The position numbers were made by a program, and so were the translations under genes. Under the pieces are notes generated by a model that did no database searches, was not told where the DNA came from, and saw nothing but the letters and a program-made list of their open reading frames with translations. 36,777 bases of DNA. Source: Planctomycetaceae bacterium. Its GTDB lineage: Bacteria; Planctomycetota; Planctomycetia; Planctomycetales; Planctomycetaceae. Numbering within the stretch: position 1 is the stretch's first letter; each line of letters starts with the position of its first letter. Positions 3,383 to 34,843 of the stretch are shown here, one piece after another. Location of the stretch: NCBI GenBank assembly GCA_021732995.1, contig JAKFWA010000109.1:1-36777 (forward strand), written 5' to 3'.

Positions 3383-3443
3383 GTGATTGATCCCGCAATT
3401 TCAACAGTCGATTGATCCAGACCAGACACCGCGACCCCGCCAG

Positions 3444-6400
3444 TTACTCTTCCCGTTTGCGGGGTTGAGCAGCAGCTCGTTGATTGGTGCGTGGAGGTTC
3501 CTGATGAGACACCTGACGAACTCCCGTATCACGCGTGCGACGTGTCATCGGAGCACCTTCGCCTGCCGGAGCGGGCGGATTGGGAATAACCGGTCGCGGC
3601 GGAGTCGGTGTGACTGGCGTCACCGGTGCAACGGGCTCGGACAAACTGTCGAAGTGGTTGGGTGCGACAACCGGGTCCATGAGTTCGGCAGGCACGCCGA
3701 AGATCGGCCCGTGAACCTCTTCCGCTTCGCATTCCGTCCAGTGCAGGCGACAAGCCTCGATCTGCTTGATCATCTCGTTGTCCGCACTGTTCTTGATCAC
3801 GTGCGGCGTCAGGAAGATCAGCAGCTCTTTACGCTGCTGGACGGACTTGTCGTAGCGGAACGCGGTACCGACGACGGGCAGATCGCCCAGCCACGGCACC
3901 TTGCGTTCCAGCGTGTCGTTGGTCTTCGTGATCAAACCGCCGAGCACGATGGTTTCCGAATCGCTGACCGTGATGGTGGCGCGAGCCGTTGTGCCGTCGA
4001 TGATCGGCGAGCGGATTTCCGCTTGCCCGGCACTCGCGCCGACGATGGCCACGGAGCCGTTGATGATCGTCTTGATGGCCTGCAACTGCATCTGAATCTT
4101 GCCGTCAGGACCGACCTTCGGAATGACTTCCAGGGTGATACCGACCTGCTGTTGAGAAATCTGCGGCGAGAAGAATCCGGTCGTGCCGTTGGACTGAGTG
4201 CCAGTCACAATCGGAATCTGCTGGCCGACGTTGATATAGCCAATTTGGTTGTGCAGCGTGCGGATCTGCGGGCGGCTGAGGATTTCCAGCTTGCGGTTGT
4301 AAGCCAGGGCTCGCAGCAGCACGCTGACCGAGTCCGAGCCAGCCGACAGCACCAGACCGCCGAAGCCCAGACCGTCGGCATTGGTACGACCAACGCCGAG
4401 GTTACCGAGGCCCTGAGCACCCACACCAGCCGGATGCGCGTCCGGTCGTGTCGGTACTTGGCCGATCGAGTTTCCGATCGTCGCCGAGTTGAATCCGAAG
4501 CCGGGCGACAGTACGCCGTTGGCCACCGCGCTGCGGTTGAACAGGATGGGATCCTGGAAGCCCAGTTCGACGCCGAATTCATCGGTGTTGTCGAGCGTCA
4601 CTTCGACCAGCAGAGCTTGAATGATGACCTGCGGCAGGTTCTCGTCGAGCGACTCGATCATCTTCACGATCTCTTCGTAGTAGCGCGGACTCGCACTGAT
4701 CAGGATCGAGTTCGTGCTCTGTTCTGACTGCACGATGATCTGCTTCTCAATCAGTTCAAACGCGCTGATCAGTCCACCGCCCTGCTGACCGCCGGTCTGT
4801 TGTTGCAACAACTGAACTTGTGAAGTCATGAACTGCTGAATGGCTTGCGCGACAATCGGCGATTCGGTGTTCTTGAGACGGAACACTTTCATCTTGCGCT
4901 CACGGACTTCGCCTTCGTCCAGTCGCAGCATCAACGCTTCGACGACTTCCAGAGCCTCGGCCGTACCAATCGCGACCACGCTGTTGGTGCGGACGTCGCC
5001 CGAGAACCGCAGCGGCACGACGCTCGACGCATCCTGAGCGGCGGCCAACTGGATTCCCAGCGGTTGCTGGTTGTTCTGGTTGTTCAGACCACCGCCGCCA
5101 CCGCCCTGCTGCTGCTGTCCGTTGAACAGTTGATTCAGCAGCGTGACGACGGAACTGGCGTCGGCGTTTCGCAGCGAGAAGTGTTTGATTTCGGCTGCGT
5201 TTGAGGTCGGTCGATCCAGCCGTTCAATCAACGACTGAATGAGTTCCATGCTTTCACGCGGCGCTGTGACAATCAGCGTGTTCGAGCGGTTGTCTCCACT
5301 GACACGGATGTCTGCGAGAATGCCCGAACGATACTTGCGCTGTTCGGTGCCGTTTGTGCCGAGGTATTCGAGAATCGAGGACCGCACTTCCTTCAGTTGT
5401 GCCGAAGAGTTGCCGCCGCCGATCCCCAGCACCTGCTGACCGAGCTGGCCTTGTCCGAGCTGAGCCGGGTTCAAGACGCTCTGGAAGATCAGGTTCAACG
5501 TCTGAGCCATATCATCCGCAACGGAGTGGTTCAGGTTGAAGAACTGCACCTGACTCACTGCACCGGATTCGCTGCGGTCCAGTTTCGTGACGAGCTTCGA
5601 GATCTCACGCAAGTCGCTGGGTTGAGCGAACACGATGACCTGATTCGTGCGCACATCAGCGACGATCCGAATCTTCGTGCCCAGTCCGCCGCGTTCGGTG
5701 ATGTTGCCGGTCTTCGTGTAGAAGTCTGTCAACATCAACTCGACTTGCGACGCGATGGCATGTTCCAGCGAGAACACCGCGAACGCTGCCTGTGGAGGCA
5801 CCGGCTTATCGAGTTCCGTAATCAAGTCCGTTACCGAACCCAGGTCGCGGTCCGAGGCGACGACGAGTACAGCGTTGGGACGTACCACGCCAATGATGCT
5901 GATCGTCCCTTCCTGATCGCTGCGAGAACCGCGAGCTTCCTTAAGCTTGTCATAAACGGAAGTCAGCAGTTCCGCGAGTGCGACACCATCGACGTGCTTC
6001 AGGGTTTGCACGTGCACATTCGGAGCAGTGGTGGCGCTGAGTTTTTCAATCTCCTCAATGACTGCTAACACGGCATCCACATCCGCCTGATTGCCTTTCA
6101 GGATGATGATTCCGTTCTCCATGACCTCGACGGTGACTTCGCCGCGGACTCCGGCAACGGTACTCGGTAGTGGGTTGCCGTCGGCGTCTTTGCGATTGGT
6201 TTCCGTCTTCGCCTCGTTCGGCTGGCCATCATTCTGCGCGATCATCTTGGCGACAGCCGTATTGACGTTCTTGACAACCGTGGCGGGATTCTTGGTCGTG
6301 GTGACGATCTTGGTCACCTCGCCGTCGTTCAGCGGCGGTGCGTCGAATCGTTGCACCAGTCGCACGATGCGCTCGACCTCTTCACCGGAGGCTTCCACAA

Positions 6401-7331
6401 ACAGTTCATTGTTCCCGGTGTCAACGCCCAGCGTAAACCACACTTCACGCGGCGCGTTCGGATTACCGGACAGCTTGTAGATGCGCAAGCCAGGCAGGCC
6501 ATCAATGGCATTCTCCAGCACTTTGGCCTGGCTGTTGAATGAGGCGAGCAGCGACTTGGCAATAGCTTCCGAAGTCACGCGCTTGGGCTTGTAGCTCTTC
6601 ACTGGAGTTGTTTCGGCGGCGTTCTTCACGGCCGGAGCATCGTCGCCTTGGAAGTTGGCGGTACGGATTCCGCTATCTCGCGCCGGACCTTGTACCGGGC
6701 GTTGGCCACCGGCCTGCTGCACGCGATTTCCCGTTCCCGTCCGTGCGACTCCGGCGACCGGAGCACCTTGCGGAGTCTTCTGAGCGGGCTCAGTGGCTTC
6801 GGGAGCGATCTGATGACGGCGATAATCGGGGCGAGTGTTCGGCAAGTACATCACCACCAGGAAGTTGCCCTGCTCGACAACGCGGAAGTCCTGACTTTCC
6901 AACTCGCGGTTGAGAATGCGCAGGGCTTCTTCGCGAGTGTATTTCTTAGTGAATTCGGTGCGAGTGAAGCGGCCTTTGGGAACGCGGTCCATCACCAGCG
7001 TTGATCCGCAGTCATCGGCGACCTTCTTGAGAACAACGTCCCAGTTCTGAGCCGAGAAGTTCAGCTTGATCTCGGGCTCTTGCTTCTCCGGAAGCGCGCC
7101 AAGTGGCTTCGCGCCGGTCTGCACGCGTGCGGAAGACTGGGGCTTCTTCGCGGCATCATTGCTGGCGGCTTTGTCCGCTTTATCTTTGTCGCGTTTCAGG
7201 AAGCCCGGCAGGCTTTGAGCACGTGCCACATCAGGGCCAAATAACGCATCGGACGGCAGTACCCAGGACGAGCCCAGTCCAAGCAACACCGCTGAAGCCA
7301 AGGGCCAACGTGGTTTGAATGACATTGTCAT
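3444..7331 (-). CDS. Giant GspD/PilQ-type secretin with multiple N1-like repeats
   Basis: A 1295-residue outer-membrane secretin, about twice the usual 600-750. A signal sequence (residues 1-39) is followed by an N0/STN-like domain (about 85-165), a linker, and seven repeats of the KH-like Secretin_N (N1) fold at roughly 245-330, 340-431, 438-510, 514-587, 593-707, 713-806 and 813-897. Several contain Gln/Gly-rich insertions (QQQQGGGGGG at about 739-748). The secretin core spans about 900-1180, with the conserved SRPQIRT, VGITLEVIPKVGPDG and VPWLGDLPVVGTAFR regions. A Pro-rich basic tail ends the protein. The ATG at 7331 has GGAGG ten bases upstream. Secretins form ring channels for type II secretion, type IV pili or related machines; no inner-membrane or ATPase partner is in the window. 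The first gene of a probable two-gene operon. Confidence 0.92.
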   Translation of the reverse strand: MTMSFKPRWPLASAVLLGLGSSWVLPSDALFGPDVARAQSLPGFLKRDKDKADKAASNDAAKKPQSSARVQTGAKPLGALPEKQEPEIKLNFSAQNWDVVLKKVADDCGSTLVMDRVPKGRFTRTEFTKKYTREEALRILNRELESQDFRVVEQGNFLVVMYLPNTRPDYRRHQIAPEATEPAQKTPQGAPVAGVARTGTGNRVQQAGGQRPVQGPARDSGIRTANFQGDDAPAVKNAAETTPVKSYKPKRVTSEAIAKSLLASFNSQAKVLENAIDGLPGLRIYKLSGNPNAPREVWFTLGVDTGNNELFVEASGEEVERIVRLVQRFDAPPLNDGEVTKIVTTTKNPATVVKNVNTAVAKMIAQNDGQPNEAKTETNRKDADGNPLPSTVAGVRGEVTVEVMENGIIILKGNQADVDAVLAVIEEIEKLSATTAPNVHVQTLKHVDGVALAELLTSVYDKLKEARGSRSDQEGTISIIGVVRPNAVLVVASDRDLGSVTDLITELDKPVPPQAAFAVFSLEHAIASQVELMLTDFYTKTGNITERGGLGTKIRIVADVRTNQVIVFAQPSDLREISKLVTKLDRSESGAVSQVQFFNLNHSVADDMAQTLNLIFQSVLNPAQLGQGQLGQQVLGIGGGNSSAQLKEVRSSILEYLGTNGTEQRKYRSGILADIRVSGDNRSNTLIVTAPRESMELIQSLIERLDRPTSNAAEIKHFSLRNADASSVVTLLNQLFNGQQQQGGGGGGLNNQNNQQPLGIQLAAAQDASSVVPLRFSGDVRTNSVVAIGTAEALEVVEALMLRLDEGEVRERKMKVFRLKNTESPIVAQAIQQFMTSQVQLLQQQTGGQQGGGLISAFELIEKQIIVQSEQSTNSILISASPRYYEEIVKMIESLDENLPQVIIQALLVEVTLDNTDEFGVELGFQDPILFNRSAVANGVLSPGFGFNSATIGNSIGQVPTRPDAHPAGVGAQGLGNLGVGRTNADGLGFGGLVLSAGSDSVSVLLRALAYNRKLEILSRPQIRTLHNQIGYINVGQQIPIVTGTQSNGTTGFFSPQISQQQVGITLEVIPKVGPDGKIQMQLQAIKTIINGSVAIVGASAGQAEIRSPIIDGTTARATITVSDSETIVLGGLITKTNDTLERKVPWLGDLPVVGTAFRYDKSVQQRKELLIFLTPHVIKNSADNEMIKQIEACRLHWTECEAEEVHGPIFGVPAELMDPVVAPNHFDSLSEPVAPVTPVTPTPPRPVIPNPPAPAGEGAPMTRRTRDTGVRQVSHQEPPRTNQRAAAQPRKREE

Positions 7332-7690
7332 GCCGTTAGGACCTCCATGTCCCGGTGCGAAGATGAAGCACGCCGATTCGGTCTACGTGGTTCAGACGCC
7401 TGAAATCCCTCCAGTCGCCCGATTGACCGGTTGCCAGCCCACGCACGAATGCCTCATCCCTGAGAACATCCGCTCTCTGCAACTGACCGCCGCGCAGAGT
7501 GTTTCCCGACCGGAAAACGCTCTGTGATCGTTACTATCGGCAAACCTCACTTAACCCCTAAAGTCAAACAGTCACGTCATGCGGATCTGTCAGTTTGGGC
7601 GAGATTGCCTCCAGAATCTTGCTCGCGAGAGTTCCCGACCTAGGGTTGCCGGACCGAGCCTTCTCACTCGTAACCCAGCCGAGGTCCCGC
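7332..7690. other. Intergenic region between divergent secretin and small membrane protein genes
   Basis: 359 bases with no convincing gene. It must hold the promoters of the minus-strand secretin operon and of the plus-strand gene at 7691. I could not pick a -35/-10 pair with good spacing on either strand. The short open frames here lack a good ribosome site and have no protein-like features. Confidence 0.6.
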
Positions 7691-8014
7691 ATGAACTCCG
7701 TTCCGAATCAAGCGCGTAAGTCCTTTGCACAACTCTTCATACTGTCGCTCGCGACGGTCGTGCTGAGCCTCTACATGGGACGTGATTTGCCCGCCGGACT
7801 GGACCTCTTCACACTGCAGGTGGGGCTGCTTGGGACTCTTACATTCATCAGCTTGACCTCGATGACGCAGGTGGCGACCTGTCGCAAAGTCGCCAGCACC
7901 GAGCCAGTTCCGACGAGCAGTGCCGTTGAACGCCGCCTCGACCGTTACGTGCCACCGAGCCACATTGGCCGCACCCGAAAAACTCCGCTGAAACGATCGG
8001 CCTGGACCCGCTGA
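7691..8014 (+). CDS. Small two-helix membrane protein, hypothetical
   Basis: A 107-residue protein not recognised as a family. The ATG at 7691 is chosen over the in-frame start at 7595 because the extra 32 residues are arginine/proline-rich and unlike a membrane protein start, and because a weak AGG lies just upstream. After a polar start (MNSVPNQARKS) come two hydrophobic segments (FAQLFILSLATVVLSLYMG and TLQVGLLGTLTFISLTSM), then a basic, probably cytoplasmic tail rich in Arg, Lys and Thr. A clean hairpin follows 37 bases after the stop, which supports a real transcription unit. Function unknown. Confidence 0.55.
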   Translation: MNSVPNQARKSFAQLFILSLATVVLSLYMGRDLPAGLDLFTLQVGLLGTLTFISLTSMTQVATCRKVASTEPVPTSSAVERRLDRYVPPSHIGRTRKTPLKRSAWTR

Positions 8015-8051
8015 GACGGTCGACCTCCAGTCTCCAGCCGCTGCAATCAAC

Positions 8052-8082
8052 ACGCCTCGCCGGGAATTTCCGCGCGAGGCGT
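8052..8082 (+). terminator. Intrinsic terminator-like hairpin
   Basis: A perfect 9-bp stem, ACGCCTCGC (8052-8060) with GCGAGGCGT (8074-8082), has a 13-base loop and is followed by TCGCATTT. It lies 37 bases after the stop of the small membrane protein gene. It shares its core with the hairpin at 9096-9128. Confidence 0.6.
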
Positions 8083-8190
8083 TCGCATTTCAGGATGAAT
8101 GCACTGGGACGGTGGCTCAGCCGATGATATACCGTTAGGACATTCCGACGATTGTTCGGTTGGGTTGCTGAGTTCGAGGGGAGGCGAGTC

Positions 8191-9066
8191 ATGTCACGCC
8201 ATTGGATGCTGATTGGTTTCCTGGGTTTGGGCCTGAGCTGCTTGAGTCAGTCTGCGTTCGCACAGCAGAATCGAGGCACGACCGGAAACTCCAATGCCAA
8301 CCCGTATGGTGCTCTCCAGCAGGCCGCGAACAGTTTCGGCAATGCGAATAGCGGATTTGGAAACACTGGCTCCGGAAACACGGGGTTTGGACAAAGCGGG
8401 TTCGGCAACACTGGCACGTCGAACAGCGGGATGTCGGGCAACAACTCGGGCTTCGGCAATACGACGCGCCTGAGCAATTCCAACTCGCAGAACAGCCGTC
8501 TGAGCAACCTCAACGCGAACGGCCAGATGCAGAGCAACACCGGTACGAACACCACCGGCATGACGAACAACAATGCCATGGGGACGAATCAGGGCGCGTT
8601 CGGAAACAATCAGCAGAGCATGTTCGGCAACCAGCAGAACCAGTTTGGTAACGCTCTGCAGAACCAGATTGGCCGTAACGCCACCCGCAACGCTCTGGGC
8701 GGCGGACGCAGTGCGTTTGGGCAGTTTGGTAATTTCAATCAGTTCAACTTCGGAAACCAACAACAGCAGCAGGGCACGATTCAGCCCTCGCTGTCGCTGG
8801 GCTTCAAGCCGCCGATGCGAGCTCCTGAACAAGTCACCGAAAGCGTTGGCACAAGGATGCAGAACGTGGCTACGCGACCTGTGAGCCGTGGCCTGTCCCG
8901 ACCCGAGTTGAAGGGTGTCGCCGCCTCGACGACTGTCGAGGGAGTTTTGACGCTCAGCGGCAAAGTGCCCACACCAGAAGCCCGGCGTCTCGCCGAGAAC
9001 ATGGCGCGATTCGAGCCCGGCGTGCGTAAGATCGTGAACGAGCTGGAAGTCGAAGCCGTGCAATAG
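8191..9066 (+). CDS. Exported Asn/Gly/Gln-rich protein with C-terminal BON domain
   Basis: A 291-residue protein. The ATG at 8191 is chosen because a strong GGGGAGG ends six bases before it and because a clean signal peptide starts there (MSRHWMLIGFLGLGLSCLSQ, cleavage near SAFAQ at 21-25). Residues 30-195 are low-complexity, made of short degenerate repeats such as GFGNTG, GQSGFGNTG, SNSN and GNQQ, almost free of charge. Residues about 237-291 match the BON fold: TTVEGVLTLSGKVPTPEARR, then AENMARFEPGVRKIVNELEV. BON domains bind lipids or peptidoglycan-associated structures, so the protein is probably periplasmic or outer-membrane associated. The Asn-rich part may be a flexible or aggregating linker. 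A strong terminator follows. Confidence 0.8.
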   Translation: MSRHWMLIGFLGLGLSCLSQSAFAQQNRGTTGNSNANPYGALQQAANSFGNANSGFGNTGSGNTGFGQSGFGNTGTSNSGMSGNNSGFGNTTRLSNSNSQNSRLSNLNANGQMQSNTGTNTTGMTNNNAMGTNQGAFGNNQQSMFGNQQNQFGNALQNQIGRNATRNALGGGRSAFGQFGNFNQFNFGNQQQQQGTIQPSLSLGFKPPMRAPEQVTESVGTRMQNVATRPVSRGLSRPELKGVAASTTVEGVLTLSGKVPTPEARRLAENMARFEPGVRKIVNELEVEAVQ

Positions 9067-17017: not shown

Positions 17018-18214
17018 ATGCGACTTCCACGCAGTGCTGTGTTGTGTCTGTTGGTGATCTGCAGCCAGAGCGTTGCAGGCACTGTTGCTCGAGCCGCCGA
17101 GCCGAGTGTGAAGCCGGTGCTGCAACCGTTTGTGGAAAGTCATTCGCTCGCCGGGGCCGTGACGGTGGTGGCATCCAGAGACAAGGTCTTGAGCACCGAG
17201 GCCGTTGGTTACGCGGACATTGCGGCGAAGAAGCCGATGGAGGTCAACAGCCTGTTCTGGATCGCATCGATGTCCAAACCGATCACTGGCGCTGCGGTGA
17301 TGGTGCTAGTCGATGACGGCAAGCTGACGATTGATGATCCGGTTGAAAAATATCTGCCGGAATTCGCCAAGCAGACGATGATCGAGGACGAAGCTGCGGA
17401 ACGCCTCACGTTCAAGAAGCCCAGTCGCACGATCACCATCAAGGACGTGTTGTCGCACACCAGCGGTCTGCCTTTTCTGTCACGATCAGAGCCGAAGATC
17501 GATCTGCTGACACTGAAGGAAGCGACGGACATCTACGCCAAGACGCCGCTCAAATCTGAGCCGGGCACCAAATACCTCTACAGCAACGCGGGTATCGGCG
17601 TGGCCGGGCGAGTTGTGGAAGTCATCAGCGGCATGCCGTTTGAGAAATTCGTGGAAGAACGACTTTTCAAGCCGCTAGGGATGACCGACACCACGTTCTG
17701 GCCTAACAAAGAGCAACTGCAGCGGCTGGCAAAGTCTTATAAGCCCAACGCGGCGAAGAACGATCTCGAAGAAACCGTGGTGACGCAGTTGACCTATCCG
17801 CTGGACGGTCCCGGTCGCTGTGTTTCACCGGGCGGTGGATACTTCTCGACGGCAGCCGATATGGCTGCGTTCGGGCAGATGGTGCTCAACGGCGGCATCT
17901 ATAACGGCAAGCGTGTGTTGTCTGAGTCATCAGTGCGGTTGATGACCTCAACGCAGACAGGCGATCTGCTCAACAAGGGGCAGGGTGAGCACGGTTATGG
18001 TCTCGGCTGGTCGACGAGCAAGAAAGCCAATCCCGACGTTCCGGTAGCTGGCCAGTGCGGACACGGCGGTGCGTATGCCACGAACTTGAGCGTCGATCCG
18101 CAACGTGGACTGGTGACCGTGTGGATGGTCCAGCACGCGGGCTACCCCGGAGACGGCAACAAAGCTCAAGGAGCATTCAACAAGTACGCTCAAGACTCGT
18201 TCGGCAAGAAGTAG
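17018..18214 (+). CDS. Exported serine hydrolase of the beta-lactamase class C/penicillin-binding family
   Basis: A 398-residue secreted enzyme. A signal peptide is visible (LCLLVICSQSVAGTVARAAE, cleavage near 27). The three active-site motifs of the family are present: SMSK at 84-87 with the nucleophile Ser84 and Lys87, the YSN at 188-190, and HGG at 349-351 in place of the KTG triad. Members include class C beta-lactamases, D-aminopeptidases, esterases and related hydrolases, and sequence alone does not tell these apart. HGG rather than KTG is common in the esterase-like and EstB-like members. It is a single gene, convergent with the sulfatase-fold gene. Confidence 0.88.
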   Translation: MRLPRSAVLCLLVICSQSVAGTVARAAEPSVKPVLQPFVESHSLAGAVTVVASRDKVLSTEAVGYADIAAKKPMEVNSLFWIASMSKPITGAAVMVLVDDGKLTIDDPVEKYLPEFAKQTMIEDEAAERLTFKKPSRTITIKDVLSHTSGLPFLSRSEPKIDLLTLKEATDIYAKTPLKSEPGTKYLYSNAGIGVAGRVVEVISGMPFEKFVEERLFKPLGMTDTTFWPNKEQLQRLAKSYKPNAAKNDLEETVVTQLTYPLDGPGRCVSPGGGYFSTAADMAAFGQMVLNGGIYNGKRVLSESSVRLMTSTQTGDLLNKGQGEHGYGLGWSTSKKANPDVPVAGQCGHGGAYATNLSVDPQRGLVTVWMVQHAGYPGDGNKAQGAFNKYAQDSFGKK

Positions 18215-24636: not shown

Positions 24637-24676
24637 CTACGAAAGTCTTCGTTGACTTCTACGAAGCGGTTCGTAC
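24637..24676 (+). promoter_or_regulatory. Tandem BlaI-type operators
   Basis: Two dyads with the same half-site: CTACGAA-AGTC-TTCGTTG (24637-24654) and CTACGAA-GCGG-TTCGTAC (24659-24676). Their centres, 24645.5 and 24667.5, are exactly 22 bp apart, about two helical turns, so dimers bound to both would lie on the same face. BlaI/MecI repressors bind short dyads as dimers upstream of their own genes. The half-site here (TACGAA) differs from the staphylococcal TACA-type. They overlap the promoter below. Confidence 0.75.
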
Positions 24677-24679
24677 AAT
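24652..24679 (+). promoter_or_regulatory. Sigma-70-type promoter of the blaI-blaR1-like operon
   Basis: TTGACT (-35, 24652-24657), a 16-bp spacer, and TACAAT (-10, 24674-24679). Both elements are close to consensus. The first operator covers the -35 and the second fills the spacer and -10, so bound repressor would block RNA polymerase. The leader to the BlaI start is about 75 bases. Confidence 0.65.
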
Positions 24680-24759
24680 CCGCTTCGGCCTTCGCTTGGA
24701 TAGGATTAACCCCGCGCTGATTCATGCGAGAGCCGTCCACAACGACGAAGGACGGATTC

Positions 24760-25149
24760 ATGGTGAAAGGTGATCTCCCGAAACCCACCGAGGCGGAGCT
24801 GGCGATCTTGCGAGTGCTCTGGGAACGCGGGCCGAGCACGGTTCGCGAGGTGACTGAGCACCTGCAGAACGAACGCGGTACGGGATACACGACCGCGCTG
24901 AAGCTCATGCAAATCATGACGGAGAAGGGGCTCGTCGCGCGGGATGAGTCTTCGCGAACTCACGTCTATGAAGCTGTCGCGACGGCCGAGACCACTCAGC
25001 GACAGCTTGTCAGTGACTTGCTGGAGCGAGCCTTTGGCGGGTCTGCTCAACAACTCGTAATGCAGGCCCTGTCTTCCCAACGGGCGTCGAAAGCCGAACT
25101 CGCCGAGATCCGCAGTCTGCTCGACGAACTCGACAAGAAAGCCAAATAG
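24760..25149 (+). CDS. blaI: BlaI/MecI family transcriptional repressor
   Basis: A 129-residue winged-helix repressor. The ATG at 24760 is chosen because AAGGA lies about eight bases upstream and the protein then begins in the normal place (LPKPTEAELAILRVLWERGP); the frame start at 24724 has no ribosome site. The helix-turn-helix and wing are typical (STVREVTEHL, then GYTTALKLMQIMTEKGLVAR). The C-terminal helical dimer region is LVSDLLERAFGGSAQQLVMQ. In the classical system a signal through BlaR1 causes cleavage of BlaI in this part and derepression. It lies 49 bp before the M56 gene and is preceded by a promoter with two operator dyads, so it most likely represses its own operon. Confidence 0.92.
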   Translation: MVKGDLPKPTEAELAILRVLWERGPSTVREVTEHLQNERGTGYTTALKLMQIMTEKGLVARDESSRTHVYEAVATAETTQRQLVSDLLERAFGGSAQQLVMQALSSQRASKAELAEIRSLLDELDKKAK

Positions 25150-25198: not shown

Positions 25199-28100
25199 AT
25201 GCTGAATTCTATTGAAATACCGGAAGCCCTGATCGACGGACTGGGTTGGTCGTTGCTGCACTTTGTGTGGCAGGGAGCCGCGCTGGGAGCACTCGCAGCA
25301 GGTGTGCTGATTGCAATGCGCCGCAGTTCCTCTCATGCCCGCTATCTGGTCGCGGTTGCGGCGCTGGCGCTCATGGGAGTTGCTCCTGTGATGACGACCG
25401 TCTGGCATATCGGCCACAACACCACCGCGCCGATGGCGACTCACGCCGAAGGTTCGCCTCAAGCCGAATCTATCAACGCGATGTCTGCGTTTGACGCGAC
25501 GGCTGCGCTTGATCAATCGCCCGCGATCAGCGCGCTGCCTGTGGATGCTGTTGATGTGGCATCTGCTGAGCCTGATACCAACGGCTTCCTGTCGGAAACC
25601 GCAGCAACGCCGCTCGAACCAGCGGCTGAAACGACGTTATTGAATGCGGCTCGAGCCTTGTGCGAATCGCACCTGACGTGGATCGTCAACGCCTGGCTCG
25701 CGGGAGTACTGTTGCTGTCGCTGCGAATGTTCGTTGGTTGGTGCCGCGTGCAGAAGCTCAAGCACCGCGGTCAGCAACTCGCGGACGACACGTTGCAAGC
25801 TGTCCTGCTGCGATTGATTGAACGGCTGAAGGTGTCGCGACCCGTGCGGCTCGTGGAGTCAGCTCTGGTGGAAGTGCCGACCGTGATCGGCTGGTTGAAA
25901 CCGGTGATTCTGTTGCCAGCGACCGCACTGACAGGTTTGAGCGCGGAGCAGATCGAAGCGTTGCTCGCGCATGAACTGGCCCACATTCGCCGCAACGATT
26001 ATCTCATCAATCTGCTGCAGACAGTGATCGAGACGCTGCTGTTCTATCACCCCGCCGTGTGGTGGCTGTCACACCGGATTCGCATTGAACGCGAACACTG
26101 CTGCGATGATCTGGCCGTGCAGGTTTGCGGTGACGAAGTGTCGTATGCGCGAGCGCTGGTCGCTCTGGAAGAACTTCGCGGTCCGCGCATTAAGCTTGCG
26201 CTGTCCGCCGATGGCGGTTCGTTACTCGGTCGAGTTCGCCGGCTGGTCACACCGCCCCGCGCCGTTGAAGATCGCTCCGGCTGGGGCGTTGGGTTGATCG
26301 CAGTTGTCGTGCTGGCGGCGTTGATGGCCGGACTCAGGTCCTCACCCGCCGAGACGCCGAACTCGACGGATGCAAACTCACCACTGACTGCAGCCGAGGC
26401 ATCAACAAACGAGACGACAGAATCAGCGGTCGTAGACACAGCTCTGGACGCCGTCGCGAAGGTCGAACCGCTCGATGGCAAGACGCTGGCCACGAAGATG
26501 CAAGAGGCCGCAGCTGCTTTGTCTGTCGGTCGCATGCGGGTCGACTTCGAGAGACTCACGGACAATTCGTGGATCTCCGGCAAGAAGGATCAGCCGCTCG
26601 TGAAGACGACGGGCAAGATCGCCTGGCGGAACGATGGCAAGCAGTGGCGAGTTGACTACGACAGCGAGCTACCGAACTCCGGCAGACCAGAAACCAGTTC
26701 CGATCAGTGGACCACCGGTTTTGATGGTGAGAGGCTGTATGACTTTGATCGCGATGGCAATTCGCTGGTGATTGGTGCCCCGAACGCGGCAGCGCGGACC
26801 TATGAGCCCTCAAACTTGTTCTGGAATCCGACGAACGGCGGACTGGAGTCGGTACTTGGCGTGCTTCGCAAACCCGATGTGAAGGTCGAGCCAGCTCAAC
26901 TGAACGGGCTGGATGGCTATCGCGTGGAACGCGTCGTCGAGAGCGACGGTAAGTGGCGTTGGTCGGCGTTCGTATGTCCGAGCCGCAGTTATCTCGCACT
27001 CGAACTGCAGCAGTTCTTCAATGATCAACTCGCATGGGACTGCAAGCTCTCAGATCTCGTCGAAGTGCATCCGGGCGTGTGGGCTCCGCAAACGATTCAA
27101 CGCGGCAGTTACACGTGGTCGAAGGAAGGCCGGCGTGGCGTCGCGTGGCAATACGATTTCAAGATCAAAGAACTGAAGCTCGGCGCTGCGGAGGCTTCAG
27201 CGTGGCCAACCGAAGCTGAACGACTCGCTGGCTTCGCGCACCCGACCATCAAGACTCCATTCGGCATCGCGATTGATGATCTGACGCGCGGCGTGGGTTA
27301 CTTCAACGATCCCTGGTGGAGCGATCTGGAGCCGATCCTCAAGGAGAAGCACGACTGGCCGAAGGTGTCGTTGCTACCACTGAGTAGCCTGCGGTCAAAC
27401 ATCAAGGAACCACGTGAATCGACGCCGAGCACCGAGCAACTCGAGAAGCTCGTGCATGAGTTTTCCATACTTCCCTGGGGAAAGCCCACTCTCCAGAAAC
27501 TGAAGCCCGGGCAGACGCCGCAGTTTCTCGAAGGTCACGTCTTCCTGTTTGTGTTCTGGGCTCCGTGGGAGCAACGCAGCGTCAAAGCTCTGGTGGCAGC
27601 GAAGCGATTGCACGATGAGTACGCACACTTCGGCCTGAAGATCGTAGCGGTCCAAGATGCGGCGAAGACTGAAGACGGTGCGACGATCTTGAAGTCGCTC
27701 AAGCTGCCGTTCCCGTCGGTGGTCGATGTACCGCCTCCGGAAACGAACCCTTGGCGGAAGGAGACGCTGCGAGAACTGCTCGGAGTGCGTGGTATGCCTA
27801 CGGCCATCTTCGTCGATCACAAGCGCGATCAGCGCAAGATTCATCCCATCGTCGATCACAAGCGCGATCAGCGCAAGATTCATCCCATCGTCGATCCCAA
27901 CAAGTTCACCGAGCAGATCGCCGAACTGGTTAAGGCTGCGGGCGCAACTGACGTTCCCATTCTCAAACTGGATGAACCGCTTTCGGATGAGATCGGCCAG
28001 GCAGCGAAGGCCGCGTGGCTGGACCTCGCGGCGAAGTCTCCGCAGAAGACAGAGATCAAGGGGCGAGTGGTCGATGGTCGCAACCTGCCACTGGCGGATG

Positions 28101-31100
28101 TGGCCATTGAGTTGCAGCCTAGATTGAAGCTGAGTCGCGGCGGCTACGGTGGTCTGACGGTGTATCCCGACCACAAGGGGACTCGGACCTTGAAGACCGA
28201 TGCAAAGGGCGCCTTCGATTTTTCGTCGCTGCCCAAGGGCAGCTACGAGATGCGAGTCAAAGCGGCGGGATATGCCAGCCGAAAGTTCGATTTCTCAGCC
28301 GCAGTGGACCAGCCGACCACCATTGATGTTGTTCTGAACCAGCCTGATTGGATCGTCGGCCGTGTCGTCAACGACAAAGGCCAACCCGTCAAAGCAGCTA
28401 AGATCGAGGCTCTGCTCCGGCACCCCGATCCGAACAACTTTGCGGCGACCGTCCGCTCGCCCGGCGCGATGCCGAAGACAGTTTCTCAGGACGATGGCGG
28501 CTTCCGGTTAGAGAACCTGGAAGTGGGCCACTACACATTCGAAGTCGATGCCATCGGGCATGAACGGCGAGTGGTCAAAACCGTGGCACTGGGAAAAGCG
28601 GATCTCAAAGTGTGGCTCGATGAATACCCCGAGCCGCTGCAACGCAAGGTGACACTCAAGGCTCAGCGCATGCCACTGCACCAAGCTCTGCAGAGTCTCT
28701 GCGACGCAGCGAAGGTGGAGTTCCAGCTCGACGGCGAAGGCCTGAAGACTCACGGCTTCACCCGAAACATGCCGGCCACGTTCGAAGTCACGGACCTGCC
28801 GCTGGGTGATGCGCTGGAAGTTCTGCTGAACGGCTTTGAGCAACTCGGCTTCGTCTGGGACGGCAAGCGTGTCTTCGTCAGCGTGCGCGACATTGCTGAG
28901 AAGCATCGTTTGCCACCGCTGGAAACCGTCAAAGGTCCGCCTCGCGAACGCTACACGCAGCTTGCTTATGAGAACGCGACGAAGGAACTCGAAGACGCTC
29001 AGCGGTCGAATTTGAAGAATCCCGGCTCGGTTGCGCCGCTGCCACTGAAGAAGCTGCAGCAGACGGTGGATGCAACTCGCGCTGAACTCGATCTCGTGTT
29101 GCACGAAGCCTCGCAAGTTACCGGTCAGCCGATCACTCCGGAGTTCTCGAAGAAGTCGAACGACTTGTTGATCAAACGCGTGCAGACCTTCCTGGCGCTG
29201 AACAAGACGCTGCTGGAGATCGCGATTGACGCGAACCAAAAGCAGCCGAGTTCAGTGCCCGATGCTGAGGTACAACGATTGCGCACGCAGATTGAACAGC
29301 TCGAAAAGGATCTCGCACGGCTGAAAGGTCAAGTGGCTGCCGATGCTCGCTCTCTCGAAAAATCGTTGGAAGTCGCTCTGAAGGAATTTCAGGTCGCGCT
29401 GGACGCGAATCAGCGTTTGCCCGGTACTGTGCCTCAAAGCGAAGTGGCGAAGCTGGAACGTGCTGCAAGTGCTCTCGCTCGCGTGAAGTCTGTGCAACTC
29501 GGGCTTGAACGTGTGACAAAGGAGCTCGAAGACGCGCAACGAGCCAACACTCAGCAGCCCGGCACGGTCACGCCGCTCGCTATGAAGGAGCTTGAACTGA
29601 AGCTCGATGCGTTTCGTGCCGAGTACGAAACCACTCTGCATGAAGCCGCCGAGCCAGTGGAACAGCCGGTTACTCCTGAGTACACGAAGAAGTTGCACGA
29701 GCTGCGCGCCAAGCTCTTGCCGACATTGTTGGCGTGGCGCAAGACGCAGCTTGAGATCGCGGTTGAAGCCAATCAGAAGCAACCGGGCTCAGTACCCGCA
29801 ACCGAGCTGAGACGGCTGGCGGATGATATCAAGACCTTCGAAATGAACATCGCGACGTCGAACGCGCGAGCGGAAGTCGATTCTCGCTCGCGTGCCAAGG
29901 CCGTGGAGTCCGCTCTGAAGGAACTTCAAATCGCTCAGGATGCGAATCAGCGTTTGCCCGGAACGGTACCTCAAAGCGAAGTAGCGAGGCTGGAACTTGC
30001 GGTCACGAAGGCAGTCCAGCAGGTGGAAGCTGAGGTCGCTCAGAGGGGGAACTCACTGCCCAATGCCAATGGCACTGCGACGCCAGTTCCGAAGCCAAAT
30101 GCAGATCGACCAGCGTCTCAAGAGGGAGTGATTCGCGGGCAGATCAAGATCGAAGGCCGAATTCCCAAGCTGCCGCCGATTCCGGTTTATGATCGCTCGC
30201 TGAACTATCCGTGGAGGATGAAGGATCCTCCGGACGAGATGGTCGCGAAGTTTGAAGCCGACCGAGCCAAGAATCCGGCGAAGTATGATCCTCGTAAGTC
30301 GCGCGATGAGTCGCTCACCGTTGGGCCGCGTGGTGAATTGGTGGATGCAGTTGTCTATCTGCCGAAGGCTCCCCCAGGCTGGAAACCAACCGCCGTTCCG
30401 AAAGAGCCCGCGACGATCAGTGCCGAAGCGGACCGCTTCGCCCCGCGCCTACAATTCGTGCGAGCTGGCCAGCAACTGATGCTGTCTTCAAAGAACAACC
30501 CGGCAATCGACAACTTTCATTCGAATCCCGTCAAGAACAATCCGTTCAACATGATGGTCCCCAAAGGGGAGTCTCTCGCGGTACCGGCGGCCTGTCTCAC
30601 TCAGCCTGAGAATTTCCCCATCGAAGTTCGCAGTGACATTCAACCCGGCAAGCGAGCCTGGCTGCTGCTGCTTGACCATCCGTTTGCCGCGGTGACTGAT
30701 GCAGAGGGAAGATTCGAGATCAAAGACCTTCCGCCCGGCAAGCATCAGTTGCGCGTCTGGCACGAACGCTCGGGGTATCTCAACAAGAGCGTTGAAGTCA
30801 CCGTGAAGGCGGAGCAACCCGCCGAGCCACTCGCGCTGAATTTTCCCTTCGAGAAGTTGATGCCGCATCGCGACGACTTCATGAAAGACGCACTCGGTCG
30901 CCCTGAACTGTCCCTGCTGGCAACCTGGTCCGATGTCAGCAATGAGTTCACCGTTGAAGCAGGCGTTCCAACTCAGGCGAAGATCATTCTGCAACTGCGG
31001 AACAGCACCGATCGTCCTGTGACCCTCACCTTACCCGGTGGCGATTGGAAGCAACGTCGTGAGGTCAAAGTTCGAGAACTCAAAGTGACGCTCGAACCTG

Positions 31101-34100
31101 CCGCCGATGCGAAGCCGACGGAGCTCACGATTCCGGCCTTTGAAACAATTCAACTACCGCTGTGCGATGTGCCGTTGGACCTGACTGGCCTCAATGCAGG
31201 CTATTGGTCCGTCCAACTGCAAACACCGCTGCATAAGGCAACCTGTTATCTGACGATGTGGATTGATGCCGGACCAAAGGGTGCAGCAGTCGCGCGTCCT
31301 GCTGTTCCACAACCGAAGACCGTGCGTGTCGCAGACCCTGAAGCTGCTGCCAAGCACCAGCAAGCTTGGAAACAGAAAGTGGCCGACATCGCCAAGCTGG
31401 TCACTCAACGCGATCAGCTTGTCCAAGAGGGCAAGGTGACTGATCAGCTCGAATCGCAGCTGGCGATGGAACGTGTGCGGTTGGCTCAGATCAAGCTCTG
31501 GTTGGCGGAAGAGAAGAACCTGTCGTTGTCGAATTCGACCACACCCGAGACGTTGGACGCACTGAAACGCGAAACGCTGGTGCGCTGGGCGCAACCGGTC
31601 GATGGCATCCAGATCGGACTTGAGCGTGTCTCGCTGAATGACACTGCGACGCCCGGCCGCCCCGTCAAGTTCCGTCACCGCGCCCGCAATGTCACCAATG
31701 AGGTGCTGCACAGAACGCTGAAGTTTGCTGCGTCAGGCGATCCTCAGGTGAAGATTCATGCGGGTGATCGGATCACACTGCGACACCTCGGTGCTGCGAC
31801 AGCGATGGCCGAAATCGAATTGCCACCCGGCGCGGATATGCCCATCGCAGGTTCTGAGTTCACACTCAAGACCGATGGACTGCTGCCGGGGCGCTACCAG
31901 GTGGAGTCGTACGATCAGTTCGCTTGGAGTGATGCTGCTCAACCAGAACGGCAGCGCACTGCTACCGCACCCGGCTGGACTCAGATGCCGTCTGATTTGC
32001 CACTGGGCTTCGACGTAGTTGCCGACCTGCTTGCTGCCGAAGCGGCCTCACCTCAGCCAGTTGTTTTTCAAGGGAGTGCTGATACTCGCTGGGGCGTGCC
32101 GGTGCAGGGACTACAGGCGGGTTTGAGATACACCAGACCCCTCGCTCGCCCGAAGGAACTTGGTGATGCGGCAAACTGGGAATGGAAGTTGAACGATGTC
32201 GTCAAAGCCGAGTACCTGATCCGCAACGTACTGACCGAACCAGCTTCGGTGACTTATTCCGTGGTCGGCGAAAACAAGCCGGTCGCACTGCTGCCGATTG
32301 CTCACTCTGTGGTCTCGTATGACGACAATGGCCCACTGCAGAATCGACGGCTCAAAGGGGGTGTCGCCTGGTCCGAGGGACACGAGCCGACCAAGGATCG
32401 CCGCACCCAACGGTTGGAACCCGGCGAGGTGCTCGTCCTCGCAACCGCTGACTTCCAACTCATCGAACAACCGAAAGAACGAAGCAACGCGGAATGGGCC
32501 AAGCTGCCTCGAGTGGATTCCATTCTGGTGACTGACGGCGGGAAGTACCGCTTCGCGACCAGTCTGGCTGTGTCGAAAACACCGGACATCTCGCTCGACC
32601 TGCGCAGCGGATCGCTGCCGCTCTTCGTGCAATCTGAGACAGCCGAACCTGATAATGCACTGGAAGCGATCCCGGCCGGAATCGGTCGCGTTTCTGTTCG
32701 CTATGAAATGCCGGGTGGTCCCGCTCAAGCGGAGGTTGTCTTCAAGCCGCTCAGGGGTAATGGTCAGCCGATCGTGAAAACTGTTCGGCAGGCTGAGACA
32801 ATTGCAGCTTTCGAACTGCCAGCGGGACATTACGAAGTCGTGAGGCGCTTAACGCTGAACACAGGCTCGTTTGAGAAATCCATCGACTGCAATCGGCAGG
32901 CGATTGCGGTCAAGCCGCAGTCCGTCGCGAACGTTGAGTTCGTCCGCAAGGCGGAATCGGTCACGCCAGTCAAAGGGCAGTGGGCGAAGCTGAGTGACGC
33001 GGGCGTGACGGGCGCGTTTCTTACGGTGCATCCGGTCGACACAAAGATCCTGAACACCGGCGATCCAGATTCGGCTTATGACTTTGAAGCTCAGCGCGAA
33101 ATCATCGCCGCCGGAACGTGCGGCGCGGACGGAAGGTTTCTACTGGAGTCACTGCCGGCAGGGCGATACGCCGTGGTGCTGAGAGCATTCCGGGCGTCCT
33201 CACAACCCGCTGGCCGAGTCACTGTGCCCTATGTCGTCGGTGTGGAAGTGGTGTCGGTGATACGACCTGACTTCCTGAGCTACTACCCCAACGAATTCGG
33301 CGTGCGGACTCGCTGGAATGCACCGCTCTGGTTGCCGACGCCAGTCAAAGCCAAGGTGGATGAACGCGTTCAGGCGGCACCGGAAGCCGCAAAGCCTGCT
33401 GATGCTATTGCGCGTGCTGTCGCCTACTTGAAGGACCAGCAGGAAGCCGACGGAAGTTGGAAGGGACCGGAGACTTTTGAAAACGGCGTGACGGCGTTAA
33501 GCACCGTGGCACTGCTGCAATCCGGTGTGAAGGCGGACGAGGCCGAGATTCAGAAGGCGCTGGTTCGTCTGCGGAAGGTGGAGCCATCCCAAACCTACAC
33601 GGTCGCATTGCAGACGATCGCATTCTGTCTGGCCTCCCCACAGGACCATGCCGACTTGATTCGTCGCAATGTGGCGTGGCTGGAGCAAGCTCAGGTCGCC
33701 GCTGGTCCTTCGACGGGCGGCTGGAGCTACGGTCTGCAGCACGGCGGTCGCGGCGATGGTTCGTGCACGCGCTTCGCGGTTCTCGGTTTGCACGCGGCCA
33801 AAGAAGCCGGGTTCGACGTCAAGCAGCAGACCTGGCAACGCCTCAGCGAGTACTGGATGAAGAATCGGACCCCGACGGGACTATGGGCTTACTCTCAGGG
33901 AGCGCCTCCCACCGTCACCATGACCCTGGCCGGCGTCGCCGGTCTGGCGACGGCTCATCGCTATTTGCCGAATGACGACGACGCCAAAGCCCGCGAGGCA
34001 GCCATGCAGGCTCCTGCAAAGTATCTGGAGAAAGTCGTCTCCGAGTGGAAGCCGACTTCGACGCCGCTCTATGCGTACCACTGCCTGGAGCGGGCTGGCC

Positions 34101-34315
34101 ATCTCAGCGGTGTCGAAAAGTTCGGCGAGGTGGATTGGCAAGCGGCGAGTGTGCCCAAGCTCCTGAAACTCCAGAACCCGAACGGCAGTTGGCGCGGCAA
34201 CGAAGCGATCGAGAATGATATCGTTGCCACGAGCCTCGGGTTGCTCACACTCACCGGCCAGGGCGGCAGGATGAGGGAAGTTGCAGCAGCTCAAGGAAGA
34301 TTTCGGATCGAGTGA
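25199..34315 (+). CDS. Giant BlaR1/M56-family metalloprotease with multidomain extracytoplasmic region
   Basis: A 3038-residue protein. Residues 1-380 are a BlaR1-like M56 module: helices near 14-39, 47-68, 158-180 and 362-379, with the zinc motif HELAH at 258-262 and the downstream EREHCCDD. The rest should lie outside the membrane: a LolA-like beta domain (about 425-680); a thioredoxin-like domain with WAPWEQRS (787-794) where WCxxC is expected; two carboxypeptidase-regulatory-like domains (about 952-1045, 1049-1140); an STN-like domain (1150-1235); two 179-residue helical repeats (1262-1619); a cupredoxin-like part (1640-1885); beta-rich regions; and an alpha/alpha toroid (2735-3025). BlaR1 normally has about 600 residues. 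Probably a sensor protease that inactivates the neighbouring BlaI; ligand unknown. Confidence 0.9.
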   Translation: MLNSIEIPEALIDGLGWSLLHFVWQGAALGALAAGVLIAMRRSSSHARYLVAVAALALMGVAPVMTTVWHIGHNTTAPMATHAEGSPQAESINAMSAFDATAALDQSPAISALPVDAVDVASAEPDTNGFLSETAATPLEPAAETTLLNAARALCESHLTWIVNAWLAGVLLLSLRMFVGWCRVQKLKHRGQQLADDTLQAVLLRLIERLKVSRPVRLVESALVEVPTVIGWLKPVILLPATALTGLSAEQIEALLAHELAHIRRNDYLINLLQTVIETLLFYHPAVWWLSHRIRIEREHCCDDLAVQVCGDEVSYARALVALEELRGPRIKLALSADGGSLLGRVRRLVTPPRAVEDRSGWGVGLIAVVVLAALMAGLRSSPAETPNSTDANSPLTAAEASTNETTESAVVDTALDAVAKVEPLDGKTLATKMQEAAAALSVGRMRVDFERLTDNSWISGKKDQPLVKTTGKIAWRNDGKQWRVDYDSELPNSGRPETSSDQWTTGFDGERLYDFDRDGNSLVIGAPNAAARTYEPSNLFWNPTNGGLESVLGVLRKPDVKVEPAQLNGLDGYRVERVVESDGKWRWSAFVCPSRSYLALELQQFFNDQLAWDCKLSDLVEVHPGVWAPQTIQRGSYTWSKEGRRGVAWQYDFKIKELKLGAAEASAWPTEAERLAGFAHPTIKTPFGIAIDDLTRGVGYFNDPWWSDLEPILKEKHDWPKVSLLPLSSLRSNIKEPRESTPSTEQLEKLVHEFSILPWGKPTLQKLKPGQTPQFLEGHVFLFVFWAPWEQRSVKALVAAKRLHDEYAHFGLKIVAVQDAAKTEDGATILKSLKLPFPSVVDVPPPETNPWRKETLRELLGVRGMPTAIFVDHKRDQRKIHPIVDHKRDQRKIHPIVDPNKFTEQIAELVKAAGATDVPILKLDEPLSDEIGQAAKAAWLDLAAKSPQKTEIKGRVVDGRNLPLADVAIELQPRLKLSRGGYGGLTVYPDHKGTRTLKTDAKGAFDFSSLPKGSYEMRVKAAGYASRKFDFSAAVDQPTTIDVVLNQPDWIVGRVVNDKGQPVKAAKIEALLRHPDPNNFAATVRSPGAMPKTVSQDDGGFRLENLEVGHYTFEVDAIGHERRVVKTVALGKADLKVWLDEYPEPLQRKVTLKAQRMPLHQALQSLCDAAKVEFQLDGEGLKTHGFTRNMPATFEVTDLPLGDALEVLLNGFEQLGFVWDGKRVFVSVRDIAEKHRLPPLETVKGPPRERYTQLAYENATKELEDAQRSNLKNPGSVAPLPLKKLQQTVDATRAELDLVLHEASQVTGQPITPEFSKKSNDLLIKRVQTFLALNKTLLEIAIDANQKQPSSVPDAEVQRLRTQIEQLEKDLARLKGQVAADARSLEKSLEVALKEFQVALDANQRLPGTVPQSEVAKLERAASALARVKSVQLGLERVTKELEDAQRANTQQPGTVTPLAMKELELKLDAFRAEYETTLHEAAEPVEQPVTPEYTKKLHELRAKLLPTLLAWRKTQLEIAVEANQKQPGSVPATELRRLADDIKTFEMNIATSNARAEVDSRSRAKAVESALKELQIAQDANQRLPGTVPQSEVARLELAVTKAVQQVEAEVAQRGNSLPNANGTATPVPKPNADRPASQEGVIRGQIKIEGRIPKLPPIPVYDRSLNYPWRMKDPPDEMVAKFEADRAKNPAKYDPRKSRDESLTVGPRGELVDAVVYLPKAPPGWKPTAVPKEPATISAEADRFAPRLQFVRAGQQLMLSSKNNPAIDNFHSNPVKNNPFNMMVPKGESLAVPAACLTQPENFPIEVRSDIQPGKRAWLLLLDHPFAAVTDAEGRFEIKDLPPGKHQLRVWHERSGYLNKSVEVTVKAEQPAEPLALNFPFEKLMPHRDDFMKDALGRPELSLLATWSDVSNEFTVEAGVPTQAKIILQLRNSTDRPVTLTLPGGDWKQRREVKVRELKVTLEPAADAKPTELTIPAFETIQLPLCDVPLDLTGLNAGYWSVQLQTPLHKATCYLTMWIDAGPKGAAVARPAVPQPKTVRVADPEAAAKHQQAWKQKVADIAKLVTQRDQLVQEGKVTDQLESQLAMERVRLAQIKLWLAEEKNLSLSNSTTPETLDALKRETLVRWAQPVDGIQIGLERVSLNDTATPGRPVKFRHRARNVTNEVLHRTLKFAASGDPQVKIHAGDRITLRHLGAATAMAEIELPPGADMPIAGSEFTLKTDGLLPGRYQVESYDQFAWSDAAQPERQRTATAPGWTQMPSDLPLGFDVVADLLAAEAASPQPVVFQGSADTRWGVPVQGLQAGLRYTRPLARPKELGDAANWEWKLNDVVKAEYLIRNVLTEPASVTYSVVGENKPVALLPIAHSVVSYDDNGPLQNRRLKGGVAWSEGHEPTKDRRTQRLEPGEVLVLATADFQLIEQPKERSNAEWAKLPRVDSILVTDGGKYRFATSLAVSKTPDISLDLRSGSLPLFVQSETAEPDNALEAIPAGIGRVSVRYEMPGGPAQAEVVFKPLRGNGQPIVKTVRQAETIAAFELPAGHYEVVRRLTLNTGSFEKSIDCNRQAIAVKPQSVANVEFVRKAESVTPVKGQWAKLSDAGVTGAFLTVHPVDTKILNTGDPDSAYDFEAQREIIAAGTCGADGRFLLESLPAGRYAVVLRAFRASSQPAGRVTVPYVVGVEVVSVIRPDFLSYYPNEFGVRTRWNAPLWLPTPVKAKVDERVQAAPEAAKPADAIARAVAYLKDQQEADGSWKGPETFENGVTALSTVALLQSGVKADEAEIQKALVRLRKVEPSQTYTVALQTIAFCLASPQDHADLIRRNVAWLEQAQVAAGPSTGGWSYGLQHGGRGDGSCTRFAVLGLHAAKEAGFDVKQQTWQRLSEYWMKNRTPTGLWAYSQGAPPTVTMTLAGVAGLATAHRYLPNDDDAKAREAAMQAPAKYLEKVVSEWKPTSTPLYAYHCLERAGHLSGVEKFGEVDWQAASVPKLLKLQNPNGSWRGNEAIENDIVATSLGLLTLTGQGGRMREVAAAQGRFRIE
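27812..27889 (+). repeat. Exact 39-bp tandem duplication inside the M56 gene
   Basis: Two identical 39-base copies (27812-27850 and 27851-27889) each encode VDHKRDQRKIHPI, residues 872-884 and 885-897, at the end of the thioredoxin-like domain. The identity at every base and the in-frame length show a recent duplication that does not break the gene. Confidence 0.97.
28982..30055 (+). repeat. Two tandem copies of a 537-bp (179-residue) helical repeat
   Basis: The copies start at KELEDAQRS (28982, residue 1262) and KELEDAQRA (29519, residue 1441). Each holds three versions of a sub-motif: a short helix, A-N-Q (or Q-R-A/S-N), then P-G-[ST]-V-[PTA] and an [EK][VL]xxL helix. The segment ANQRLPGTVPQSEVA is nearly identical in both, with base differences only at a few third positions. 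Heptad-like charged stretches suggest a coiled-coil or helical rod. Confidence 0.9.
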
Positions 34316-34321
34316 CAGGTC

Positions 34322-34843
34322 ATGCGTTTCCGTCGTGTCATCGGAATTCTGCTGGCAGGTATCTGCCTCGGATATCTACTTCAGACGGTCGGCTGTTCCC
34401 TCAAACACTGGAGCGTTACGGCAGCGCGCCTATCGCCCGACGAAACGAAAAGTGTCGTCGTGGAAGATGTGGTACTGCTCTTCTTTCAGCTTGATCGCAA
34501 TTTTAGAGTTCTACTGCAAGATGCTGGCCAGGCAGACGGCGCGTCGAAAGTGGTATTCGAGTCACCCGATGAGGGACGGCCTGTTGGTACGGAGCGGATC
34601 GTCTGGTCCAGAGATTCGTCGAAGTTCCTCTTGCTCGGACGACATTTTTTAGTGCATGAAGAATGCAAACTGAGTTCGGGAGAGATCGTTTACTTCATGA
34701 TGGATCTCCGAACTGGCAAGACCTGGTGCAATGCTCGTCAGGGAGCTGACATATCTCGACTTGAACGAGACCACGTGATGAGCATCGACTGGGAGTTCCC
34801 GCTTGAGTGGCCAGAGCCGGGAACAAAGCCAGAGACCAAATAA
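34322..34843 (+). CDS. Small exported protein, hypothetical, last gene of the BlaI/M56 operon
   Basis: A 173-residue protein starting six bases after the M56 stop, so it belongs to the same operon. The N-terminus is a signal or lipoprotein signal (MRFRRVIGILLAGICLGYLL, then QTVGCS; Cys25 has only a partial lipobox because the -3 residue is Thr). The rest is one soluble domain with two short segments that look like single blades of a beta-propeller: ARLSPDETKSVVVED and ERIVWSRDSSKFLLLG. These resemble WSPDSxxF motifs of PD40/TolB-type repeats, but there are too few for a full propeller. Function unknown; it may act with the giant sensor outside the membrane. Confidence 0.7.
   Translation: MRFRRVIGILLAGICLGYLLQTVGCSLKHWSVTAARLSPDETKSVVVEDVVLLFFQLDRNFRVLLQDAGQADGASKVVFESPDEGRPVGTERIVWSRDSSKFLLLGRHFLVHEECKLSSGEIVYFMMDLRTGKTWCNARQGADISRLERDHVMSIDWEFPLEWPEPGTKPETK

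Follow-up and report, generated by a model that had tools for sequence, protein, structure and literature searches.

The window analysed here, a 36,777-nt stretch of contig JAKFWA010000109.1 from a Planctomycetaceae bacterium, encodes a BlaI-type repressor followed by a BlaR1-like membrane protease of 3038 residues.

Frame, membrane core and neighbouring genes

The gene for the giant M56 protein (25199-34315) is a single ORF from ATG to stop and, like all features described below from the blaI promoter to the ORF behind the giant, lies on the + strand. Its 3038-aa translation has no internal stops, and GC at third codon positions is uniform over the frame (0.62-0.71). A stop or frameshift, named in the sequence-only reading as evidence that would weaken it, is not found in 25199-34315. 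A frameshift or misassembled fusion was rejected in view of the open frame, the even third-position GC and the fusion seen in relatives too.

Pfam places Peptidase_M56 (PF05569) at residues 156-329 (E 2.1e-33; 116 bits against a cutoff of 31), and the zinc-protease motif HELAH occupies residues 258-262. With a profile score above the curated cutoff and an HExxH motif, the protein belongs to peptidase family M56. Residues 1-383 (25199-26347) form a four-helix M56 chassis, as judged from HELAH, hydropathy and a match to the BlaR1 structure: two solved BlaR1 chains, 8exs and 8exp, align to residues 165-306 (E about 0.001), and with the whole giant as query the E value is 0.008. Five hydropathy peaks lie at residues 22-40, 50-68, 159-177, 221-239 and 361-379, the fourth of them within the M56 domain. 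The charge pattern around the other four helices fits a protease in the cytoplasm and a tail outside, and residues 384-3038 (2655 aa) are the predicted extracytoplasmic tail by hydropathy and charge. The earlier description of one stop-free frame with an intact M56 domain, HELAH and four membrane helices holds on ORF, Pfam and hydropathy analysis.

The proposed BlaR1-type chassis with an adjacent BlaI was likewise upheld, as was the missing penicillin-binding sensor. NCBIfam blaR1_generic covers only residues 160-313 (98 bits against a cutoff of 400), and neither this model nor the Pfam scan detected a penicillin-binding sensor domain in the giant. A beta-lactam system was rejected, since that domain was not found. 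A gene of beta-lactamase fold (PF00144) is located at 17018-18214, about 6.5 kb upstream of blaI; it is not linked to the blaI-M56 operon because no dyad lies near it. Elsewhere in the window, 3444-7331 on the - strand encodes a 1295-aa secretin with six secretin N domain matches.

The BlaI-type repressor (PF03965, E 5e-26) is encoded directly upstream of the giant at 24724-25149. Comparison with a same-genus relative (L029) suggests that its real start is probably the in-frame ATG at 24760, 12 codons into the ORF. Six nt past the giant, a possibly co-transcribed ORF (34322-34843) encodes a lipoprotein-like product of 173 aa that matched no Pfam family and is unlike the ORFs behind other giants compared. 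A conserved third gene does not follow the giants: when 73 loci were scanned for a sense ORF of at least 90 aa within 150 nt after the giant, one was present at 29, and none was related to another.

Domains of the tail

The tail begins with a LolA-like fold (residues about 421-670; 26459-27208) and a thioredoxin-like fold of the ResA/DsbE kind (about 731-945; 27389-28033). An AlphaFold2 model of residues 421-945, made from an alignment with nine relatives, has a mean pLDDT of 81. Foldseek matched its LolA-like part to LolA3 (9tp6, E 3.5e-10) and its second part to ResA/DsbE-type thioredoxin-fold proteins (3gl3, E 8e-5); sequence profiles gave ResA for the latter (4nmu, E 4.5e-14) and a weak match to 9tp6 for the former (E 0.08). 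Both folds, named earlier from the letters, were thus confirmed. The thioredoxin-like domain has EQRS and no CXXC, and CXXC is missing in 8 of 8 thioredoxin-like homologues, five behind M56 and three without M56 in frame. Fusion to M56 was rejected as the cause of the loss, since homologues without an in-frame M56 also lack the motif. An exact 39-nt in-frame tandem duplication (27810-27887) lies inside this domain.

Carboxypeptidase-regulatory-like domains (CPD) at residues 946-1140 (28034-28618) were recovered by Pfam, in agreement with the previous assignment. They are followed by a small domain at residues 1141-1235 (28619-28903) with matches in 14 other M56 tails, some of which are the same locus counted twice; the STN-like label given to it found no confirmation. 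A helical region (1236-1645; 28904-30133) contains an internal duplication with 537-nt spacing. Neither this duplication nor the 39-nt one is mentioned in the sequence-only reading.

Residues 1646-1885 (30134-30853) comprise a cupredoxin-like and CPD-like domain that lacks copper-type ligands. Its homologues include common free-standing proteins some 300 residues long. Of 31 distinct full-length copies of the free-standing kind (37 rows minus 4 fragments and 2 duplicates, with the HN column read from the alignment), 30 have both a Cys and the His of an HN motif, versus 0 of 13 M56 tails. These residues are presumably type-1 copper ligands. The sole free-standing copy without them is a separate protein of 691 aa (L213). 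Independent loss in each tail was rejected, and the claim is limited to the 13 examined tails being without ligands, because the tree allows a single loss. Sequence searches, PDB included, named no cupredoxin for residues 1646-1885; the cupredoxin-like label would hold through the ligand motif of the free-standing relatives.

Module C (2027-2714; 31277-33340) matched no family, and a PDB search found nothing like it among solved structures. The protein ends in a squalene-cyclase-type toroid (2713-3038; 33335-34312), a region already recognized and now recovered as a profile match to squalene-hopene cyclase that spans 54 positions within the final 326 residues. The view that the tail consists of mostly inactive domains stands for two of them, which lack active or ligand residues (CXXC and copper-type ligands, respectively). 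Several tail modules resemble one-time enzymes or metal-binding domains turned into scaffold or binding parts.

One explanation for such a tail is mostly neutral domain accretion, by which it would grow through recombination and duplication while the M56-BlaI core alone matters. Internal duplications and large gains and losses between relatives are consistent with this, as are a decayed locus (G160) and a stop in a related copy (G001), but the substitution pattern speaks against it. In comparison with one relative, with dS near saturation, dN is well below dS in all five stretches of the giant gene; the dN/dS values along the tail are 0.56/1.92 for the LolA to STN region, 0.42/1.40 for the cupredoxin-like region, 0.53/1.56 for module C and 0.36/2.08 for the toroid. 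The frame is also open over 9 kb. Neutral accretion is considered very improbable.

Module exchange among M56 genes

The giant was rejected as a unique protein, with M56 relatives in its own genome and in others. Nine M56 matches occur in the 9.39-Mb genome, among them ORFs of 2767, 2212 and 1246 aa, and M56 is present in 46 of 59 relatives. A set of 83 M56 proteins, taken from the window's genome or picked for long frames or for M56 similarity, keeps HExxH in every member. Its 74 complete tails have a median length of 1320 aa, with 47 above 1000 aa, 15 above 2000 aa and the longest at 3275 aa, although these lengths are biased and not a fair sample because members were chosen by similarity or length. 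Pfam modules across the tails include WD40 propellers, LRR, HEAT, PQQ propellers, SecDF-head and CPD. In 20 further giants, Pfam found CPD in 14, Big_1 in 10, LRR in 7 and WD40 in 4. In the named loci whose tail is complete, lengths above 1000 aa are seen in 11 of 19 Planctomycetota versus 0 of 49 others. Schlesneria and further Planctomycetaceae are among the nearest relatives with a name; organism names of MAGs may be wrong.

Other members of the family show further variety. An acidobacterial M56 ORF (L099) has a polysaccharide-deacetylase tail at residues about 387-514 (PF01522, E 9e-8). Tails of about 320 aa that are apparently short repeats occur in two Myxococcus loci (L129 and L155) and one from Acidobacteria (L095), and those of L129 and L095 matched no convincing Pfam family. 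The blaI-M56-tail locus at 827-4879 of L209 (G160) is decaying, its frame being in several pieces. In the same-genus relative L029 (G001; 2723-8635), a TAG splits the M56 gene near its start, and this copy may be broken.

Comparison of tails with M56 domains revealed discordance between the two. L029 shares with the giant the M56 domain (69% over 162-384) and residues 427-1413 and 1576-2023, and then ends. L020 has residues 428-1237 in common with the giant and continues directly into the toroid, and L017 and the giant have only M56 and module C in common. A survey of relatives for the same domain order had been proposed as a check; shared blocks are found in these three, but the arrangement is a mosaic and the order varies. 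The most similar M56 domains do tend to carry related tails: among 22 pairs with M56 identity of at least 60%, 18 share some tail and 10 share more than 80% of the shorter tail; at 50-60% identity, any tail is common to 62 of 150 pairs. L051 and L059 have M56 domains that are 62% identical and complete tails of 1894 and 2196 aa that do not match. L037 and L040 (M56 68%) have no tail in common, the tail of L040 being cut at a contig end.

Part of the module sharing is by descent, because the toroid, cupredoxin-like and LolA labels are clustered on an M56 tree of 81 rows (0 of 500 shuffles as low). The M56 domains of the window and L017 stand apart on this tree, and grouping them was rejected (p-AU 0.0005); module C is 44% identical between the giant and L017, which represent two separate M56 lineages. 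Full-length module C occurs outside the giant only behind the M56 of G065, and no other of the 170 family genomes has it at full length, with three weak partial matches. Copies of the LolA-thioredoxin-CPD block that lack M56 (23-26% identity) are L204, with a start of its own, and probably L205 and L206, both of which start at the edge of a contig. Toroid relatives are proteins of about 800 aa (about 31-41% identity). Free-standing cupredoxin-like and squalene-cyclase-type proteins of planctomycetes are homologous to tail modules, yet are separate genes. The downstream parts thus exist as separate genes for the LolA-thioredoxin-CPD block and the toroid, which would weaken the idea of a single sensor, but not for module C, which is found at full length only behind M56. 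It appears that modules are exchanged between M56 genes, and that the giant is one of many M56 proteins with exchangeable tails; the notion of one sensor extended once was not sustained.

Similar M56 domains can carry tails unrelated in sequence, and one conserved ligand is therefore hard to reconcile with the data. This would suit an assembly checkpoint, in which M56 senses export and folding of its own tail and fits synthesis to export capacity, with no external ligand; the giant as the sole output found points the same way. Such a checkpoint is nevertheless improbable, as the same gene pair and operator accompany short tails with little to check (L041, 350 aa; L060, 301 aa).

Operator, proposed regulatory loop and related systems

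The blaI gene has a sigma70-like promoter, TTGACT-16-TACAAT, at 24652-24679 with 10 of 12 consensus matches; a promoter search upstream of blaI found this one, versus a shuffle mean of 0.2. Two operator dyads abut its -35 and -10 elements. O1 (TACGAA-N4-TTCGTT, 24638-24653) overlaps with its end the first two bases of the -35 element. O2 (24660-24675) is a perfect TACGAA-N4-TTCGTA that covers the larger part of the spacer and extends two bases into the -10 element; it is the sole perfect copy in the 9.39-Mb genome. By sequence, the locus thus has the inverted-repeat operator at the operon promoter by which a BlaR1/BlaI pair is recognized, although this operator presumably differs from the bla/mec operator.

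The arrangement recurs across M56 loci. A blaI gene lies directly upstream of M56 in 79 of 83 loci, and the other four M56 genes begin at the edge of a contig. Of the 79 blaI genes, 59 have CGAA-N4-TTCG in the 300 bp before them, 56 of these in two or three copies; mononucleotide shuffles for 77 of the 79 upstream regions gave 0.2. The dyad is missing in 20, of which at least four have a short upstream stretch (2 to 222 bases) and most others are distant M56 clades. There are two main operator classes, TACGAA and (T)AGCGAA, separated by 13 BlaI columns, of which seven fall at residues 33-46, presumably the recognition-helix region; this link could come from descent alone. Tandem clusters lie before blaI within 400 bp in 54 of 54 cases among loci L009-L091, and within 350 bp in 39 of 40 among 80 named loci, the 40th being about 355 bp before the blaI ORF. 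At least one dyad is present upstream of blaI in Acidobacteriota (17/27), Gemmatimonadota (4/4), Myxococcota (3/3) and Bacteroidota (3/7), and in none of Actinomycetota (0/1).

Genome-wide searches place the operator near-exclusively at blaI-M56 promoters. In the window's genome the tandem pattern occurs three times, before this blaI, before the one paired with the 2212-aa giant and within a simple repeat, against one in a backward control. In 170 family genomes, the strict TACGAA form gave 19 distinct sites in 19 genomes (control 0), all just before blaI, with M56 within the stretch read in 18. Seventeen of these run into TTGA(C/T), and the strict -10 form of the overlap occurs in only six. 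The AGCGAA form gave 34 places at 33 promoters in 27 genomes (control 0), and blaI is within 350 bp in 30 of 32 promoters read. Both exceptions are near contig ends. At L257, 51 contig bases remain on one side, and the other side has what is presumably a PurH-like gene. At L270, the tandem site precedes a tail-module fragment with no blaI in reach, and a target without blaI is therefore possible. In L279 (G181:C150, 1-445), at a contig end, a tandem operator lies directly before an ORF fragment of an M56-tail module, with no blaI or M56; this site is either a remnant or a stand-alone target.

No separate effector gene under a tandem operator was found in the window's genome in a search for strict patterns, which may miss weaker or single sites. 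Since nearly all operators found lie at blaI-M56 promoters, the idea of a regulon elsewhere in the genome loses weight. A classical sensor with a wider regulon would have the tail read an envelope signal and BlaI also act on unlinked genes by way of degenerate or single sites. Separate effector genes are controlled by BlaR1 systems whose function is known (PMC7593790), and the AGCGAA-type tandem site before a tail-module fragment without blaI is in keeping with such targets. However, single sites with at most one mismatch outside this promoter number 11 in the window's genome, which is the level of the control (11), and tandem sites lie almost only at blaI-M56 operons. A wider regulon is rather unlikely.

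There is about an even chance that blaI and the giant M56 gene instead form an autoregulated, closed-loop operon whose tail is both sensor and regulated product. The features that lead to this model were computed directly: the gene, its membrane pattern, the pairing with BlaI, the operator and its near-exclusive position, the module discordance and the ligand loss. Binding and proteolysis of BlaI, and what the tail senses or does, are inferred. BlaI would bind the two dyads at -35 and -10 of its own promoter and hold the operon low. The giant would reside in the inner membrane, its zinc protease facing the cytoplasm and the 2655-residue mosaic tail lying outside. A change in the state of the tail, through a ligand, tension, misassembly or a missing partner, would switch the M56 protease on, by analogy with BlaR1. 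The active core would then remove BlaI, and more giant would be made from the operon. The giant itself is taken as the product of the loop because no other target was found; the output would be the tail protein, sensor and effector in one. In S. aureus, BlaI is cut by the BlaR1 protease itself, and binding of a beta-lactam has been proposed to move an extracellular loop away from the BlaR1 sensor domain (PMC9834060).

BlaR1/BlaI and MecR1/MecI of staphylococci and bacilli share with the giant an M56 zinc protease between helices and a BlaI-family partner, and their extracytoplasmic C-terminus agrees with the location predicted for the giant's tail. In contrast, neither a penicillin-binding sensor domain nor an effector gene was found for the giant. 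The BlaR1 sensor part comprises residues 332-585, and the tail of the giant is about ten times longer. The M. tuberculosis BlaR1 homologue is also an M56 protease without an equivalent sensor domain, but the available text describes no giant tail for it (PMC9834060). Huge proteins are reported to be frequent in Planctomycetota (PMC11573180), and large repeat domains like those of the giant are known from planctomycete serine/threonine kinases, whose WD40 and TPR repeats are predicted to be periplasmic, and from ECF sigma factors with WD40 or TPR (PMC11032199, PMC8567305). Those proteins have a different signalling core, and the available text of both sources does not mention BlaI or the operator. 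Giant or tail-swapping BlaI-M56 systems, or this operator, were not found among the literature matches listed, which is weak evidence of absence. The parts are of known kinds.

Antibiotic resistance is the main setting in which the BlaR1/BlaI switch is known; here a switch of this kind is joined to exchangeable envelope proteins that reach about 3,700 residues. The natural fusions of one protease core to unrelated tails offer a handle on how BlaR1-type proteases are triggered. The locus also makes a regulatory principle open to experiment, and its operator is precise enough for cloning and assay. The tails found on M56 proteins include giant mosaics, propellers, LRR, HEAT and a polysaccharide-deacetylase domain. 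It is conceivable, if somewhat doubtful, that blaI, CGAA-N4-TTCG and a membrane M56 protease constitute a cross-phylum chassis that takes nearly any envelope protein, each regulated in amount by its own state, and that Planctomycetota expanded it into self-regulated giant surface receptors. As far as can be judged from the DNA, the blaI-M56 switch here controls little but itself.
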